In this document: one piece after another, positions 765 through 42,355 of the stretch
Position numbering within the stretch: the stretch's first letter is position 1
How the letters are laid out: the number at the start of each line of letters is the position of its first letter
From: Adlercreutzia hattorii
GTDB taxonomy: Bacteria; Actinomycetota; Coriobacteriia; Coriobacteriales; Eggerthellaceae
Direction of reading: 5' to 3'
NCBI RefSeq assembly: GCF_011405655.1
Contig: NZ_AP022829.1
Span: 2,527,001-2,591,000 of the forward strand
DNA: 64,000 bases
Notes under the pieces: model-generated
Seen by the model: the letters and a program-made list of their open reading frames with translations, nothing else
Databases searched by the model: none
What the model was told of the DNA's origin: nothing
Translations under genes and position numbers: made by a program

Positions 765-3700
765 CTACACGGCGTCGGCGTGCAGGGCCTCTACCACGTT
801 GTCGGCGCGGCAGCGGTGCATGCCGTAGGCCACCGACGCACCCACGGCGACCACGGTCATGGCGGCGGCCAGGGCCACGTAGCTCCAGGGCAGCGTGAAG
901 GGCAGCCCCGTCATCGATCCGGAGATCACCTGCCACAGCAGGAAGGACACGAAAAGCGACAGCAGCACGCCGGGCACGAGGCCGCGGACGCACCAGGCGA
1001 CGCATTCCTCGGCCACCATAGCGCGGAACTGCCGGTTCGAGAGTCCCACCGACTTCATGACGGCGAACTCGCGGCGGCGCAGGATGAGGCTGTTGGTCAC
1101 CGTGTTGAACACGTTGGCCATGGCGATGAGCGCCAGAATCACCGCGAACAGCAGGCAGAACACGTTCACCACCGTGGCGATCATCTGGTTGGAGTCGCGC
1201 TGTTCGATGTAGTCGTTGAAGGAGTAGAACGCCAGCCCGTAGGGACTCTTGTCGTGGAAGTACGCGCTGCCGGCCGTCGCCAGCTCCTCGGCGAGCGCGC
1301 CGTGGTCGCCATCGGCGGAGTCGAAGTAGCCGTAGAAGATGGGGGCGTCATTGCCGAAACTCTGGTAAGCCGCCACAGACTCGGGCACGATGAGCTGCAG
1401 ACCCTCTCCGCGGGCGCTGGCGATAGCAGGCGCCTCCTCGGCCAGGGCGACAACCTCAACGGAGACCGTCTGCACCTCCGCCTCCTCGAGAGGGAACCAT
1501 TCGACCCCGTCGTCATCGCCTTCAAGGTAGGGTTGGAAGGCGAAGGCCTCAGAATTGCCCTCTCCGGACGTTGCGCCGACGCCGATGCCCGCCGCCGGCT
1601 CGCCGTGATAGGTCGCCGCCGTAAGGGCCTCCAACGTGCCCGGCTCGCGCAGCACGTTGAGCAGCTGGTAGACGCTGCCGTTGTTGCCGTAGCCTTGGGC
1701 CAAAGCGATGGCCCGCAGGTGAGCCGGATCGCGGAAGTCGGCGGGGTCAAGCCCCAAGCTCTTCGCGTAGTCGTCGAAGGCGGCGTCGTCGAGGTAGGCT
1801 ACCGACCCCACGGTGCCGACGCGGCCGTCGGCCATCTTGCCGCCCATGCCGTTCTCCTGATCGACGAGGGCCTCCCCTGCCATGGCCTCGGGCAGCATAG
1901 CGTACAGCCCCGTCCCCATTTTCCAACCCACAGGCTCGGCGCCGGCCACCTGGGAGAGATCGTGGAAGGCGCCGGCAAACACCTCGGCCTGGCGGGCGAA
2001 CAGCTCGTTGTTCGCGGCCGCTACCGCCTCGGGCGTCATGGGAGCGGCGGGCTGGGTCGCAGCGCTGTCGGCACCCGTCGCGCCATCGTTGCCGGCTTGC
2101 ACGTCCCCGTCGGCCGTCCCTTCGCCCTGCGGCGTCTCCACATCCAGTTGGGCCATGACGCCCACCTCGCCGGCCAGCTCGCCGCCGCCGGTCACCACGT
2201 CGGTCAGGGTGCCGAGGAACACGCTCAGCGAGCCGGCAGTCATAAGCAGCACGATGGCGAGCGCCAGCGACACCGAGGCTGCCCGGCCCTTCCCCGTGCC
2301 GCGCTTGCGGCTGATGCGCGCCAGCATGCCGCCGACGCCGAGCACGCGCCCGGCCGCCCCACGCGCCTTCCACAGCGACGAGGGCGCCGTGCACTTCGCG
2401 GCCCGAGCCGCCCCGCGCCGGGAAACGCGGCTGCCACTGGCGGCCCGCAGCGAGTCGATAATGTTCGTGCGACTCGCCCGCTTCGCCGGAATCCACACGG
2501 ACACGAGCACGGTGACGAAGGTGAGCACCGAGGCCACCAGCAGCACCCAGCCGTTCACGGCCACGCGGAAGGGAACTTCCACCGATCCGGCCAGCTGGGC
2601 GAGCGCCGGCCCCAAGGCGGCGAAGGTGACGGCGCACCCGGCCAAACCGATGAGAAGCCCGCAGGGGATGCCGATGACGGCCACGATGGCCCCTTCCAGC
2701 ACCACGGCGCGGCGCAGTTGCCGGCGCGACGCGCCCACCGAGGACAGAAGCCCGAACTGCTTGATGCGCTCGGCTACCGAGATGTTGAAGGCGTTGAAGA
2801 TGAGCGACACGCAGGCCACCACGATGACCGCCGCCAGCACCACGACCAGGCCGTAGAACGTCGTCCAAATGGAGGAGTCGCTGGAAACGCCCATGTAGCG
2901 CAGCATGGCCGTGTGCAGCACCACGTGCTCGTCGGGGAACAGCGCCTCTGCGGCCTCTTCCACCTGCTGGGTGTTGGTCACGTCGTTCAGCGTGAGGAAC
3001 ACGTCGGTAAAGGCGTCGGGCGCAGCGGCCCCGGCGGTCACGCCCACCATGCCCGCAGCGGTGGAAAGGGCGTAACCCGGACGGTCGTAGAAGCCCACGA
3101 CGGTGTAGGTGCGCTCCTCGGTGTTCGTGACCTCCTCGTTGAAGATGCCGCCGTCGATGTCCGCCTCCAGCACGCCCATGGAGGAGTTGAGCGGCGCGCC
3201 GTCGGTGATCTCGCTCTCGTGGGCCTCCCCTTGCACGCCCCACGAAGCGCTCATGGTGCCGGCGGACATGGAGCCCTCCTCGCCCGGGGCGAGCCGTGCC
3301 ACCCGCTGGCCCACGTTGAAGGTGACCGTATCGCCGAGGCTCACGCCGCCGTAATCGTTCCAGGTGGCGAAGAGCATGATCTCGCGGTCGCTCTCGGGCA
3401 GGCGCCCCTCGCTGGGCTCGATGCCGCAGATGTCGCCCACGTCGCCCTCGATGGAGCGGATGGCCAGGTAGGTTCCCTGGGTATCCTGCTGGTCGGCGGT
3501 CAGCTCGGCGAAGCCGATATCGCGCATGATCGCCGTGCCGAAAACCTGCGGATCGGCTTGGGCGCCGGTGATCCTCTCGTCGAGCACTGAGCTGTCGTCG
3601 GCTTCCACGCAGGCCATCCACGTACCGGCCAGGGCTGCTTCATTGCGATAGAGGAAGTCGTTCAGCGATGCATAGGTGGTGAGCACCGCCGTAAGCAAAG

Positions 3701-3791
3701 CCGCGGCCAAGGCCACGCCGGCGATGGTCACCAGCGTGCGTACCTTGTTGGCGCGCAGGCTCTTTACGGTGAAGTTCGTCGTGGCGTTCAT
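765..3791 (-). CDS. Large FtsX-type ABC transporter permease
   Basis: A 1008-residue integral membrane protein. An N-terminal membrane segment (about residues 13-40) is followed by a large extracytoplasmic region, a first FtsX-like three-helix block around residues 300-440, a second large soluble region, and a second FtsX block near residues 860-1000. Both FtsX blocks carry the typical SVG(A/L)S..Q.R turn (LLSSVGASRRQLRR and MKSVGLSNRQFRA). This doubled layout is known from MacB/LolE-like and BceB-like exporters that extract peptides or lipids rather than import solutes. Its start overlaps the stop of the ATPase gene as ATGA, so the two are translationally coupled. The adjacent two-component system suggests envelope-stress or antimicrobial-peptide control. 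The substrate is unknown. Confidence 0.85.
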   Translation of the reverse strand: MNATTNFTVKSLRANKVRTLVTIAGVALAAALLTAVLTTYASLNDFLYRNEAALAGTWMACVEADDSSVLDERITGAQADPQVFGTAIMRDIGFAELTADQQDTQGTYLAIRSIEGDVGDICGIEPSEGRLPESDREIMLFATWNDYGGVSLGDTVTFNVGQRVARLAPGEEGSMSAGTMSASWGVQGEAHESEITDGAPLNSSMGVLEADIDGGIFNEEVTNTEERTYTVVGFYDRPGYALSTAAGMVGVTAGAAAPDAFTDVFLTLNDVTNTQQVEEAAEALFPDEHVVLHTAMLRYMGVSSDSSIWTTFYGLVVVLAAVIVVACVSLIFNAFNISVAERIKQFGLLSSVGASRRQLRRAVVLEGAIVAVIGIPCGLLIGLAGCAVTFAALGPALAQLAGSVEVPFRVAVNGWVLLVASVLTFVTVLVSVWIPAKRASRTNIIDSLRAASGSRVSRRGAARAAKCTAPSSLWKARGAAGRVLGVGGMLARISRKRGTGKGRAASVSLALAIVLLMTAGSLSVFLGTLTDVVTGGGELAGEVGVMAQLDVETPQGEGTADGDVQAGNDGATGADSAATQPAAPMTPEAVAAANNELFARQAEVFAGAFHDLSQVAGAEPVGWKMGTGLYAMLPEAMAGEALVDQENGMGGKMADGRVGTVGSVAYLDDAAFDDYAKSLGLDPADFRDPAHLRAIALAQGYGNNGSVYQLLNVLREPGTLEALTAATYHGEPAAGIGVGATSGEGNSEAFAFQPYLEGDDDGVEWFPLEEAEVQTVSVEVVALAEEAPAIASARGEGLQLIVPESVAAYQSFGNDAPIFYGYFDSADGDHGALAEELATAGSAYFHDKSPYGLAFYSFNDYIEQRDSNQMIATVVNVFCLLFAVILALIAMANVFNTVTNSLILRRREFAVMKSVGLSNRQFRAMVAEECVAWCVRGLVPGVLLSLFVSFLLWQVISGSMTGLPFTLPWSYVALAAAMTVVAVGASVAYGMHRCRADNVVEALHADAV

Positions 3792-4471
3792 CGGCGGATC
3801 CTCTCGTCGCGCACGATGCGGCCGTCCTCCACGGCGATGATGCGGTCGGCGGCCAGCGCGATCTCCTCGTCGTGGGTGATGACGATCATGGTCTGGCCGA
3901 ACTCGCGGTTGGAATCGCGCAGAAGCTGCATGATCTCGCAGCTGTTGCGGGTGTCCAGGTTGCCCGTGGGCTCGTCGGCCAACACCACCGCCGGCGCGTT
4001 CATGAGGGCGCGACCGATGGCCACGCGCTGCTGCTGGCCGCCGGAGAGCTGGCTGGGCAGATGCCCCTCGCGGCCGGCGAGCCCCAACCTTTGCACGAGG
4101 CCCTGCAAGCGGCCCGCGTTCACGGTGCGGCCGTCCAGCGCCACGGGCAGCGTCATGTTCTCCACCACGTTCAGCACCGGCACGAGGTTGTAGAACTGGT
4201 ACACCAGCCCCACTTCGCGGCGCCGGAACACCGCCAGCTCCTCATCCGAGCGCGCGTACACGTCGGCGCCGTTCAGCAGCACGTGGCCCGAGGTAGGTCG
4301 GTCCACGCCGCCGATGAGGTGCAAGAGCGTCGACTTGCCCGAGCCCGACGAGCCCACGATGGCCACGAACTCGCCCTCTTCCACGCTGAAGGACACGTCG
4401 TCTAAGGCGCGGGTGGCCGCCTCGCCCTCTCCGTAGATCTTCGTCAAGTGGCTGACCGTCAAAATGTCCAT
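3788..4471 (-). CDS. ABC transporter ATP-binding protein (MacB/LolD type)
   Basis: A 227-residue ATPase partner of the FtsX permease. Walker A is GSSGSGKSTLLH, the signature is LSGGQQQRVAIGRAL, Walker B is VVLADEPTGNLD, and a switch histidine lies in VITHDEE. The start at MDILTVSHL is chosen because AGGAG/AAAGG lies just upstream; a longer frame to 4531 would lack a ribosome site and begin with a non-family leader. The 3' end overlaps the permease start by 4 nt. Confidence 0.92.
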   Translation of the reverse strand: MDILTVSHLTKIYGEGEAATRALDDVSFSVEEGEFVAIVGSSGSGKSTLLHLIGGVDRPTSGHVLLNGADVYARSDEELAVFRRREVGLVYQFYNLVPVLNVVENMTLPVALDGRTVNAGRLQGLVQRLGLAGREGHLPSQLSGGQQQRVAIGRALMNAPAVVLADEPTGNLDTRNSCEIMQLLRDSNREFGQTMIVITHDEEIALAADRIIAVEDGRIVRDERIRR

Positions 4472-4572
4472 GCCAGATGCCTTTCTTCTCCTGGTTTCCC
4501 AATCTACGGAACAAGTATGGCGACCGCTCATTGCCGCCCCCTAACGCGCCCATTACGATGCTGTAATTAAAA

Positions 4573-4633
4573 GGCTTAATGCTCGAAATTTGGAACACTA
4601 ACGGGCCTAATGTCCCAAATTTCGAGCATTAGC
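4573..4633. repeat. Long imperfect hairpin upstream of the ABC operon
   Basis: Twenty-base arms at 4578-4597 and 4611-4630 match with one mismatch (core AATGCTCGAAATTTGG against CCAAATTTCGAGCATT), with a 13 nt loop. It lies between the kinase stop (4645) and the ABC ATPase start (4471), so it could be a terminator for the kinase transcript or a regulatory site for the ABC genes. No T run follows it. Confidence 0.6.
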
Positions 4634-4644
4634 AGGCGCGCCAC

Positions 4645-5829
4645 CTACACCACGAGTTTCGGGAAGGCGATTTCGAAACGGGCGCCGCCGTCGGGGTTGT
4701 TGGAGGCGCGCAGGGTGCCGCCCTGGGCCGAGACGAGGGCCTGCGCCAGGGAAAGCCCGATGCCGAACCCGGCGGGCTGACGAGCGTCGTTGCCGTCGTC
4801 GTCAGCCCAGGGGCGACCAAGGTCGCCCCCTACGGGATCGGCCTGCATCCTGTCGGTCGGATCGGTATTTTCCGAACGGAACGGTTTTGATCGAATTCCC
4901 TCAGCCGGATCGAAGCCTTCTGAAGGGGGCGACTTTAGTCGCCCCTCGGGCGCAAGCTCGGGAGATGCCGGGACGGGCCCCCTTCCCCGGTAGAAGCGCT
5001 CGAAGATGTGGGGCAGGTCCTCTGGGGCGATGCCGGGGCCGGTGTCAGAAACGGCAATAGTGGTGGCCAGGGCATCCTCACGCACGACCACGGTCACCGT
5101 GCCCCCGGGAGGGGTGTGCTCCATGCAGTTCTTCGCGATGTTCTCCACGGCCTCAGCGGTCCAGGGGGCATCGCCCTGGAAGGTGGCGGTCTCGTCCAAT
5201 TCCAGTACGAGATTTACATCGCGCAGATCCATGGCCGTGGCCAAAGGCGCCACGGCCCGCCGCGCCACCTCGGCGGCCCGCACTTCGCGCCGCTCCACGT
5301 GCATGGCCCCGGCGTCCACCTTCGCGATCTTCAGCAGCGTGGTCACGAGCCACGAGACGCGCTCGATCATCGACTCCAGCTCGCGCACGGCCCGCTTGCG
5401 CTCCCGCGCGTCGTCGGCGCGTTCCACCACGGGCAGCATGAGCGTGATGGCCGTGAGCGGCGTGCGAATCTGGTGGGACACATCGGCCAGGGAATCGGCC
5501 AGGGCGTTACGCTCGCGGGCCAGTTGATCGCGGGTGCGCGAAAGGCGCGACACCATCTTCGACAGCTCGTTGGCGAGCACGGCCACATCACCCTCGCGGC
5601 AGTTCGAAAAGTCCACCGTGCGGCCCGAATGCAGCACCTCGTCGATCTCCTCGGCAAGTCGGCGAATCTGGCGATGGCGGTACAGCGACACCACGAGGAA
5701 CACCGCCAGCAGCACCGCGCCCGTGCCGGCGACCCACGGCTTCACCTCGCTCGGCGCCGCCCACGCGAGCACAGCCACGAGCGCCGCCATAACCGCGCAC
5801 TGGCGCAAGAGCGTCGATGCCGAGCCCAC
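4645..5829 (-). CDS. Sensor histidine kinase with a repeat-derived insertion
   Basis: A 394-residue membrane kinase. Two N-terminal hydrophobic segments (about residues 10-26 and 34-50) with almost no extracytoplasmic loop resemble intramembrane-sensing kinases. HAMP-like linker, then H box DVSHQIRTPLTAI, N box EAVENIAKNCMEHT, G1 DTGPGIA, F box FERFYRG and G2 GFGIGLSLA. Between F and G2 (about residues 285-353) is a long low-complexity stretch where relatives usually have roughly 10-15 residues; its DNA contains two copies of an intergenic palindrome seen elsewhere in the window. The start is GTG at 5829, 8 nt after AGGGGGCG. It follows the response regulator gene and presumably phosphorylates its product to control the ABC genes. 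Whether the enlarged ATP lid still works is unknown. Confidence 0.85.
   Translation of the reverse strand: MGSASTLLRQCAVMAALVAVLAWAAPSEVKPWVAGTGAVLLAVFLVVSLYRHRQIRRLAEEIDEVLHSGRTVDFSNCREGDVAVLANELSKMVSRLSRTRDQLARERNALADSLADVSHQIRTPLTAITLMLPVVERADDARERKRAVRELESMIERVSWLVTTLLKIAKVDAGAMHVERREVRAAEVARRAVAPLATAMDLRDVNLVLELDETATFQGDAPWTAEAVENIAKNCMEHTPPGGTVTVVVREDALATTIAVSDTGPGIAPEDLPHIFERFYRGRGPVPASPELAPEGRLKSPPSEGFDPAEGIRSKPFRSENTDPTDRMQADPVGGDLGRPWADDDGNDARQPAGFGIGLSLAQALVSAQGGTLRASNNPDGGARFEIAFPKLVV
4810..4945. repeat. Inverted pair of palindromic repeats inside a coding sequence
   Basis: Two 20 bp palindromes, GGGGCGACCAAGGTCGCCCC (4810-4829, flanked by CCTACGGG) and GGGGCGACTTTAGTCGCCCC (4926-4945). 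They face opposite ways about 115 bp apart and both lie in frame within the kinase gene. The same unit occurs at 15716-15797 and, diverged, at 42205-42355. This is the arrangement of a BIME/REP pair. Confidence 0.8.
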
Positions 5830-5928: not shown

Positions 5929-6600
5929 CTACTCCCCCACTTTGTAGCCGAGGCCGCGCACGGTGACGATGAGCTCAGGCTCGGCGGGATCGGTCTCCAC
6001 CTTCTCGCGCAGGCGCTTCACATAGACGTTCAGCGCGTTGTCCGACACGTACTCCCCGGCGCTGTCCCAAATAGCGTCGCGCAGGTTCTCGCGGGTGACA
6101 AGCTTGCCCTTGTGCTGCAAGAAGTACAGCAGCAGCCGGTACTCCAGCGCCGAGAGGAACACCTCGCGGCCGTCCTTGGTCACGGCCGCCGAGGCCACGT
6201 CGAGCCGCACGTCGCCGACGGTGAGCACGTTGGAGGCCGGGGCTGTGCGCCGCAGGGCCCCGCGGATGCGCGAGATGAGCTCCCGGGCGCGGAAGGGCTT
6301 GGCGATGTAGTCGACGGCCCCCATATCGAGCCCCGCCACCGTGGAGTACTCGTCGTCGGAGGCGGTGAGGAAGATGACGGGCATCTCGGGCGCCGTCTCC
6401 CGCGCGGCCGCGCACACAGCGAACCCGTTGCCCTGGGCCAGCGTCACATCAAGCAGCGCAATGTCGAAGTCGTCAGCCGCCAGCGCCGCACACGCTCCGT
6501 CCTGGGTCGCGCATGACCGCACGGCAAAGCCCTCCCCTTCCAAAAGGTCGGTCAGCGCCAGCACGATGGCATGATCGTCCTCAACCAGCAGAACCCGCAT
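5929..6600 (-). CDS. OmpR-family response regulator
   Basis: 223 residues with a receiver domain (MRVLLVEDDHA start, phosphoacceptor in DIALLDVTLAQGNG, TA(S)DDE and YIAKPF motifs) followed by a winged-helix DNA-binding domain that ends RGLGYKVGE. The start at 6600 is preceded by GGAAAGGGG. It is the first gene of the regulator, kinase, ATPase, permease series, a layout typical of systems that detect and expel envelope-active compounds. It likely controls the downstream ABC genes. Confidence 0.92.
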   Translation of the reverse strand: MRVLLVEDDHAIVLALTDLLEGEGFAVRSCATQDGACAALAADDFDIALLDVTLAQGNGFAVCAAARETAPEMPVIFLTASDDEYSTVAGLDMGAVDYIAKPFRARELISRIRGALRRTAPASNVLTVGDVRLDVASAAVTKDGREVFLSALEYRLLLYFLQHKGKLVTRENLRDAIWDSAGEYVSDNALNVYVKRLREKVETDPAEPELIVTVRGLGYKVGE

Positions 6601-6690
6601 GATGCCCCTTTCCACGCGCACGTCGCCGCAGTCAGCACCTGAGCCACTGCGCCCGATGCCCTTTCTCGTTCGCCACCATGATAGCGTCCT

Positions 6691-6718
6691 ATTATGGGAA
6701 ACCGCGCCCGAACGGCAA
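6691..6718 (-). promoter_or_regulatory. Possible sigma-70 promoter of the response regulator
   Basis: On the minus strand TTGCCG is followed after 16 nt by CATAAT, ending about 90 nt before the regulator start. The match is partial. The rest of 6601-6852 shows no gene. Confidence 0.35.
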
Positions 6719-6852
6719 GAAAGCAAGTCTCCTTACGAATTCGTAATCAGCTGCAATGGAGACCTCAGCACCTGTGCTATCGAAGCCTACGCCATCTCAT
6801 CAGAACGCTCGCTATTCCCCTCTTCAGAAAAGGCACACCCGATAAGGATGCC

Positions 6853-15640: not shown

Positions 15641-15715
15641 CAGCGCCCGCTGCGGGAGGGCGGATCCACTCGCAGACCTCTGGGCGCCCTGCGGAGATGC
15701 GCATCCTCTTCCGTA

Positions 15716-15797
15716 AGGGCTGACCTTGGTCAGCCCTCGCGAGCAGATTATGGACGCACGACAAAAAGAGGGGCGACCAAGGTCGCCCCCTACGGAT
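15716..15797. repeat. Inverted pair of REP-like palindromes between convergent genes
   Basis: AGGGCTGACCTTGGTCAGCCCT (15716-15737) and GGGGCGACCAAGGTCGCCCC (15770-15789, followed by CCTACGG). The two units face each other with CCGTA(A/G)GG flanks on their outer sides. This is the same family as the insertion in the sensor kinase gene. Between the hybrid kinase and leuS it may also terminate both transcripts. Confidence 0.75.
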
Positions 15798-42204: not shown

Positions 42205-42355
42205 CGTAGGGGGGCGGCTTCAGCCGCCCTGCGGACGCGTGGGCCGAGAGCGGGAGGGCTGAAGGCCTCCCGTAGGGGGCGGCTTCAGTCGCCCTGCAGA
42301 AGGAGGACGCCCATCGTAGGGAACAAGAAGGGAGGGCCTAAAGCCCTCCCCTACC
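42205..42355. repeat. Cluster of four REP-like palindromes
   Basis: Units GGGCGGCTTCAGCCGCCC (42212-42229), GGGAGGGCTGAAGGCCTCCC (about 42253-42272), GGGCGGCTTCAGTCGCCC (about 42278-42295) and GGGAGGGCCTAAAGCCCTCCC (42330-42350). Several are preceded by CGTAGGG. They belong with the palindromes at 4810-4945 and 15716-15797 and adjoin the carbamate-kinase fragment. Confidence 0.75.

Follow-up and report, generated by a model that had tools for sequence, protein, structure and literature searches.

The question raised by this locus is how a sensor histidine kinase came to carry, in frame within its ATP lid, a pair of inverted palindromes whose relatives lie mostly outside genes. The kinase gene occupies 4645-5829 on the minus strand of the window, by which we mean the whole 64,000-nucleotide stretch of DNA that was analysed. 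It encodes 394 residues from a GTG start (ORF list, Pfam and AlphaFold), its frame is open throughout, and two N-terminal helices are predicted ahead of the Pfam matches to HisKA (9.5e-10) and HATPase_c (1.3e-21), the latter split in two stretches. Both domains are accompanied by H, N, G1, F and G2 boxes, and the protein accordingly belongs with the HisKA/HATPase_c kinases. In a 32-sequence alignment, most positions of the F box (HIFERFYR, 4987-5010, minus strand) are invariant or nearly so, and in the G2 box (GFGIGL, 4753-4770, minus strand) G356, G358 and L359 are invariant. Between them lies the linker that forms the ATP lid, 72 residues in length (residues 282-353; 4771-4986, minus strand). 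In an AlphaFold model built with 32 sequences (mean pLDDT 79, pTM 0.60), most other 10-residue blocks reached 70-98 and residues 286-353 fell below 50, so that the lid loop is predicted to be disordered.

Upstream of the kinase on the minus strand is an ORF at 5929-6726 which, from its sequence features, we presume to encode a response regulator. Downstream, on the same strand as the kinase, are ORFs for an ABC transporter ATPase (3788-4531, minus strand) and a large permease (765-3791, minus strand), both functions being named from sequence; an ABC ATPase gene also comes after the kinase in a congener (locus L004). At 4577-4631, in the gap from the kinase to the ABC ATPase ORF, lies a separate inverted repeat, A+T-rich and with 24-nt arms that are 92% complementary and 7 nt apart. 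This is possibly an operator or terminator, and its half-site pattern had no match in 275 loci other than a second record of the same locus (L001).

The linker contains two inverted, GTAG-tagged REP copies, both in frame. The first (4802-4837, minus strand) is sense to the kinase, keeps its GTAG intact and encodes PVGGDLGRPW, and the second (4918-4953, plus strand) is antisense to the kinase, has GTAG changed to GAAG and encodes EGRLKSPPS. Their inverted arms (4806-4831 and 4924-4949) are 26 nt long, 88% complementary and 92 nt apart. The first-pass annotation had described an inverted palindrome pair placed in frame in the lid of this kinase, and with the ORF open and the boxes intact that description stands; its estimate of roughly 55 added residues was somewhat high, as the REP-derived part (4808-4949, 142 bp with the spacer) accounts for ~47 codons of the 72-residue linker. 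The GTAG ends of the pair point inward, opposite to the usual pair in this genome.

A BLAST search of 4790-4960 against the genome (G000; a single contig of 2,908,404 bases) gave 57 matches, a count that includes the query itself and double hits of palindromes. The best short match was 33 nt long and 100% identical (E 2.5e-10), and exact matches of 33, 31 and 30 nt to the lid segment lie elsewhere in the genome. These genome-wide matches agree with the earlier proposal that an intergenic palindrome family has been turned into coding sequence here, and they are the independent evidence for the family, because the covariance model used for counting was trained on all four strong copies in the window, whose E-values are partly by construction. 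Within the window, the family pattern matched 15 times against 1.33 expected (each palindrome scored on both strands), and the largest count in 100 shuffles was 5. A typical pair lies at 15709-15797 (no strand assigned), with GTAG ends outward and 53 bp from start to start; the coding test described below assigns no gene to it, and its membership of the same family, claimed earlier for 15716-15797, holds (E ~3e-8). The cluster at 42205-42355 had also been counted as plainly the same family. We rejected this, since its match, at 42268-42302 on the plus strand, reaches only a marginal E of 0.089 and the cluster consists of diverged GTAG-tagged palindromes.

The REP consensus, CCGTAGGGGGCGACCTTGGTCGCCCCTC, was derived from 67 aligned copies of 70 collected, three being left out. 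In its stem, 5 of the 9 pairs vary at both positions and 99.8% of cells are paired, a covariation biased by the fact that the copies were first selected as palindromic. At E<=0.01, with the best 150 candidates scored per genome, the covariance model found at least 94 copies in this genome, 12 in its sister species G006, a single copy in each of G003, G004 and G007, and no copy in G001, G002, G005 and G008. At E<=1e-4, with stricter filters and the best 50 candidates scored per genome, G000 and G006 were the only genomes to match among 138 of the family. Most copies lie outside genes, 74 of the 94 being left unassigned to a gene by the coding test. Neighbouring copies within 150 bp of each other formed 31 pairs, 30 of them in opposite orientation. 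Among the 27 pairs other than those inside genes, 24 had GTAG outward, two inward and one was direct, and the close outward pairs measured 47-99 bp from start to start; in one of the outward pairs (1835848/1835896), the second copy falls within the end of a gene, L133. The four pairs inside genes were arranged differently (one outward and three inward, including that of the kinase; Fisher p 0.008 against the other pairs). GTAG was intact in 77 of 94 copies, namely 12 of the 20 in genes and 65 of the 74 elsewhere, and was thus lost more often in genes (8/20 versus 9/74, p 0.008). A short palindrome with GTAG at one end, paired stem changes, dispersal and pairing in opposite orientation together identify this as a GTAG-tagged REP family.

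The first-pass annotation implied one odd gene, and a search for the palindrome inside genes found the repeat in frame in 15. We used a test of codon usage that had been trained on the fetched stretches and required a coding signal in the same frame to either side of a copy, and it placed 16 copies inside ORFs and four near ORF ends. One of these, near the end of a doubtful 119-residue ORF (L135, 2197891), was then dropped, and the sense copy of the kinase (2531802), inside the kinase ORF but under the threshold of the script, was added by hand. This left 20 of the 94 copies in frame in 15 genes, the kinase included. The weakest gene call that was kept is L138, with coding scores of 4.3 and 7.6, whose ORF has a protein-kinase domain. 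In 11 of the 15 genes the covariance model found a single copy. Two copies each are in frame in the histidine kinase, a U32 protein (L103) and RecQ (L136), and three in a protein without a Pfam match (L137). The genes with one copy encode a MetH-like protein (L100), a second U32 protein (L104), QueH (L107), two ABC-F proteins (L110 and L167), PrmC (L122), a NapH-like protein (L099), the Ser/Thr kinase L138, the tail of an Mfd-like helicase (L120, 'Mfd' being read from its DEAD, Helicase_C and TRCF domains), AzlC (L117) and the C-terminus of a ketopantoate-reductase-like protein (L133). By Pfam coordinates, the inserts fall between the pterin-binding and B12-binding matches of the MetH-like protein, between the N-domain and the methyltransferase of PrmC, and between the zinc-binding and RQC matches of RecQ. 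Those of the histidine kinase, QueH, L103 and L104 (in the last within the DUF3656 match) occupy a variable loop within a domain match.

The in-gene copies were also biased in reading frame. The consensus can be read in three sense frames: one is closed by the TAG of GTAG, one is rich in Arg and Trp, and one is rich in Gly and Pro and reads VGGDLGRPS. Twelve of the 20 in-gene copies share this last frame, encoding VGGDLGRPS or a close variant, while two lie in the other open sense frame (L120 and L136), one in the TAG frame (L133), and five are antisense in two registers (three and two). The preference is 12 versus 2 against the other open sense frame (p 0.013) and 12 of 19 open-frame copies against an expectation of 1/5 (p 5e-5), with the reservation that copies in genes with two or three of them are not independent; 19 copies were used because L133 sits in the frame normally closed by TAG. 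In L133 (1992-2040) the reductase-like C-terminus runs on for ~11 residues through the REP, where the TAG of GTAG is CAG. Read by eye, the codons gave no sign that purifying selection acts on the REP peptide.

Orthologues from the genus, aligned as a nine-genome set in which the species studied here is represented by one strain, place these inserts in stretches that vary without them. In all 13 genes compared (the 15 less L117 and L133), congeners differ from one another in the stretch that holds the REP peptide. Ten genes were measured with one row for each of 2 to 7 congeners, the G000 and G006 rows left out, and in nine a REP site was within 5 residues of an indel among the REP-poor congeners, as only 1-17% of residues are, although alignments of such variable linkers are rough. 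The tenth, L167, failed this measure with two fragment rows in its set, and among its full-length rows five REP-poor congeners show linker lengths of 28-48 residues. Three further genes agree by eye in having the REP in a variable stretch. The length variation among congeners amounts to just one residue in L110 (three congeners) and L099 (two congeners).

For the histidine kinase, the F-G2 linker of 72 residues compares with 18, 18, 26, 47, 48, 48 and 48 residues in seven congeners, and the insert is absent in 7 of the 7 congeners whose kinase was found, a comparison with close relatives that the first reading had proposed; in G006, a 79%-complete assembly, no kinase match was obtained at E<=1e-40. 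Across 37 readable rows of 39 loci (no row came from L012 or L156, L010 duplicates L006, and L155 seems to duplicate L009), the linkers span 6 to 72 residues, and the other relatives have lids of 6 to ~58 residues with intact boxes. The premise that this loop is normally short thus does not fit the genus, where linkers without a REP reach 48 residues from a minimum of 18, nor L166, a family relative with ~58. We likewise rejected the idea that a long lid is unique to this kinase, since relatives have long linkers without palindromes (44 residues in L162 and ~58 in L166, the latter with no REP-like hairpin). The linker of L166 (G028) has been lengthened by short tandem repeats, a further way in which linkers grow. 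Perfect hairpin arms reach 9 bp in the linker studied here and at most 6 bp in the other 36 rows, which include two or more duplicates. Because the linkers vary so much, the exact insertion boundaries cannot be read in the kinase.

The sister species G006 shares some of the insertions. It has rows for 11 of the 13 genes compared, and a same-site, in-frame insert in four: the ABC-F gene L110 (SVGGDLGRPSAAT), prmC, which has a complete sense-antisense REP pair, recQ, which keeps the antisense copy only, and queH, where the peptide is much changed and the proposed homology of the inserts rests on position and partial sequence. In the other seven no shared REP peptide is visible. The linker of its MetH-like protein (L207) is enlarged by tandem repeats instead. 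G006 also has an in-frame REP copy in what we take, from its sequence, to be a TsaB-RimI-TsaD-like fusion. Among the other congeners, the sole REP match of G004 is in frame in a presumed pyruvate:ferredoxin-oxidoreductase-like gene (VSVGGNLSRPSAG; L184, ~1996-2031), and prmC of G003 holds a decayed inverted pair, as judged by eye, while the single matches of G003 and G007 were not in a gene by the same coding test.

The prmC locus may also bear on the origin of the kinase insert. The sense copy in the kinase resembles the prmC insert, and the 80-nt spacer between the two kinase copies (4838-4917, minus strand) in part resembles DNA beside the prmC REP (L122, 1966-2002; 37 nt at 81%, E 0.001, BLAST among stretches of this genome). 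Within it, the 15-mer TTCGGAAAATACCGA (4862-4876, minus strand) is common only to the kinase spacer and the flank of the prmC insert in 275 loci, among which L001 duplicates the kinase locus and L186 that of prmC, and 'SEN' is present at the corresponding place in the PrmC row of G006. As a lead, we consider that prmC may have been the source from which the kinase insert, together with some flank, was copied. The spacer similarity suggests more generally that REP copying carried flanking DNA.

As to a copying enzyme, a search with PF01797 (Y1_Tnp) gave six matches in G000, whose translations read as copies of one gene that we take to be IS200-type. A PF01797-type RAYT of its own driving the REP family was thus rejected, as no REP-associated transposase (RAYT) was found in G000 with this model, which a too-diverged RAYT could escape. 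The same search gave one match in G008 and none in the 79%-complete assembly of G006. Since no such transposase was found, REP copying is something that we infer from the distribution of the copies. One of the IS200-type genes (1180037-1180393) lies between two outward-facing REPs ~840 bp apart (L116, 2015-2889; G000, 1179814-1180688), as if it had been inserted into the spacer of a REP pair.

Taken together, these observations are very probably explained by copies of a mobile-type REP, filtered against frameshift and core disruption, that persist as tolerated linker peptide. A GTAG-tagged REP family would have multiplied in this Adlercreutzia-type genome, most copies settling outside detectable genes and a minority landing inside them. 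The in-gene copies that survived would be those that kept the reading frame and fell in stretches already free in length, where they would be translated as nearly neutral spacer, and selection against worse peptides would have produced the bias towards the VGGDLGRPS frame. In the kinase, a REP pair with its 80-nt spacer would have joined an ATP-lid loop of variable length and left the catalytic boxes intact, and the insert is most likely tolerated rather than functional. That the insert might instead have been exapted, altering lid dynamics and tuning the kinase or phosphatase activity, a reading that goes back to the first-pass annotation, is suggested by its position in the ATP lid, by the ~4 chain residues or fewer between the linker-flanking matches in three alignments with solved structures (DivL, 8u4x and QseC), and by a palindromic insert that changed the substrate affinity of a Rickettsia guanylate kinase, according to the parts of that report consulted (PMC2229807). 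We consider this unlikely, because lids of 6 to ~58 residues accompany intact boxes in orthologues, unrelated proteins contain the same repeat, and the loop is predicted to be disordered.

About equally unlikely is an effect at the level of RNA, in which the REP hairpin in the kinase mRNA would slow ribosomes or alter mRNA stability and so change expression of the downstream transporter. A 156-nt segment of the transcript has a predicted folding energy of -77.5 kcal/mol, compared with an average of -56.7 for shuffles (z -5.4, with 0 of 200 shuffles as good), the two REPs are paired to each other in the predicted fold, and kinase and transporter share a strand. However, any inverted REP pair should fold likewise, 11 of the 15 genes have a single copy by the model, and the seven congener linkers have no hairpin arm above 6 bp. 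If the kinase had recently become a pseudogene, its disuse would make an insertion tolerable, and the sole point in favour of this is the presence of an insertion in a catalytic domain, but its frame is open, its boxes are intact and its core is conserved, and the same repeat occurs in prmC and the mfd-like helicase, which we judge unlikely to be dead; decay is thus very improbable. Strongly disfavoured, and the least credible of all, is an ancestral low-complexity linker whose palindromes arose by chance or convergence. The first-pass annotation had held that a linker of the same length without a palindrome, in orthologues from distant genera, would show the linker to be ancestral, and long lids do arise without palindromes (L162 and L166), but this particular segment is REP-derived, given its exact matches of up to 33 nt elsewhere in the genome and its 9-bp hairpin arm.

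Palindromic repeats inside genes are already known, and the GTAG REP family described here is a new instance of them. According to the parts consulted of the most closely related study (PMC3733652), REPs tagged with GTAG or CGTC occur within genes in several bacteria, in-gene dimers or groups encode 20-30 residues that were suggested to form flexible linkers or loops, DNA repair genes are stressed as carriers, and GTAG REPs often provide the stop codon of neighbouring ORFs. The present family resembles those in being a short palindrome with a GTAG end, dispersed, arranged in pairs of opposite orientation and mostly intergenic with some copies wholly in ORFs, and the emphasis on repair genes is matched by RecQ and the Mfd-like helicase among our 15 genes. 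In contrast, the main text of that study nowhere mentions Eggerthella, Cryptobacterium, Slackia, Coriobact- or Actinobacteria, and the orthologue-based placement in linkers and the one-frame bias found here are absent from its consulted parts. Rickettsia palindromic elements (RPE) are, in the parts consulted, described as in frame in unrelated ORFs, solvent-exposed and shared between sister species at matching sites of orthologous proteins (PMC3767692), and the Rickettsia guanylate kinase with a palindromic insert was active (PMC2229807). Our family is like them, as far as the consulted descriptions go, in that mobile-type palindromes (20 copies in 15 genes) stand in frame in unrelated proteins and inserts recur at the same site in sister-species orthologues. 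It differs in that RPE are 100-150 bp long and belong to Rickettsia and Wolbachia-type bacteria, whereas the repeat here is ~30 nt and GTAG-tagged; the REP thus appears to work like an RPE, yet its size keeps us from filing it as one. Inverted REP pairs with a short spacer also recall REPIN-RAYT systems as described in the consulted parts of two reports (PMC3116915, PMC8049555), but no RAYT was found here, for which reason the family is not filed as such, and three of the four in-gene pairs are arranged oppositely. Among the papers listed, none was relevant to palindromes or REPs in Adlercreutzia, Eggerthella or Coriobacteri-, which is no proof of absence in print, and single-frame bias, orthologue-based linker placement and Coriobacteria are absent from the consulted parts of PMC3733652, PMC3767692 and PMC2229807.

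A further possibility, which we put forward only tentatively, is that genes act as a refuge, in which the repeat would be safe to translate, copies in the VGGDLGRPS frame and in variable stretches would turn into plain protein spacer and outlive the intergenic family, coding fossils would stay in congeners that have lost the REP, and dead palindromes would in part feed linker growth in the genus. This is supported by the sole REP match of G004 being in frame, by the decayed pair in prmC of G003 and by the higher loss of GTAG in genes, and its odds are lowered by two of the three single matches in REP-poor congeners not being in genes.

With this family, an actinobacterium of gut-type habitat, as we presume from its genus, joins the bacteria in which palindromic repeats are known as translated insertions. 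The genus also provides a clean comparison set, in which a REP-rich species stands beside a REP-bearing sister and seven REP-poor congeners that have orthologous proteins. With such a set, the route from repeat to protein sequence, the dominance of one frame, and mobile-type DNA as a source of loop growth in enzymes such as sensor kinases all become testable.
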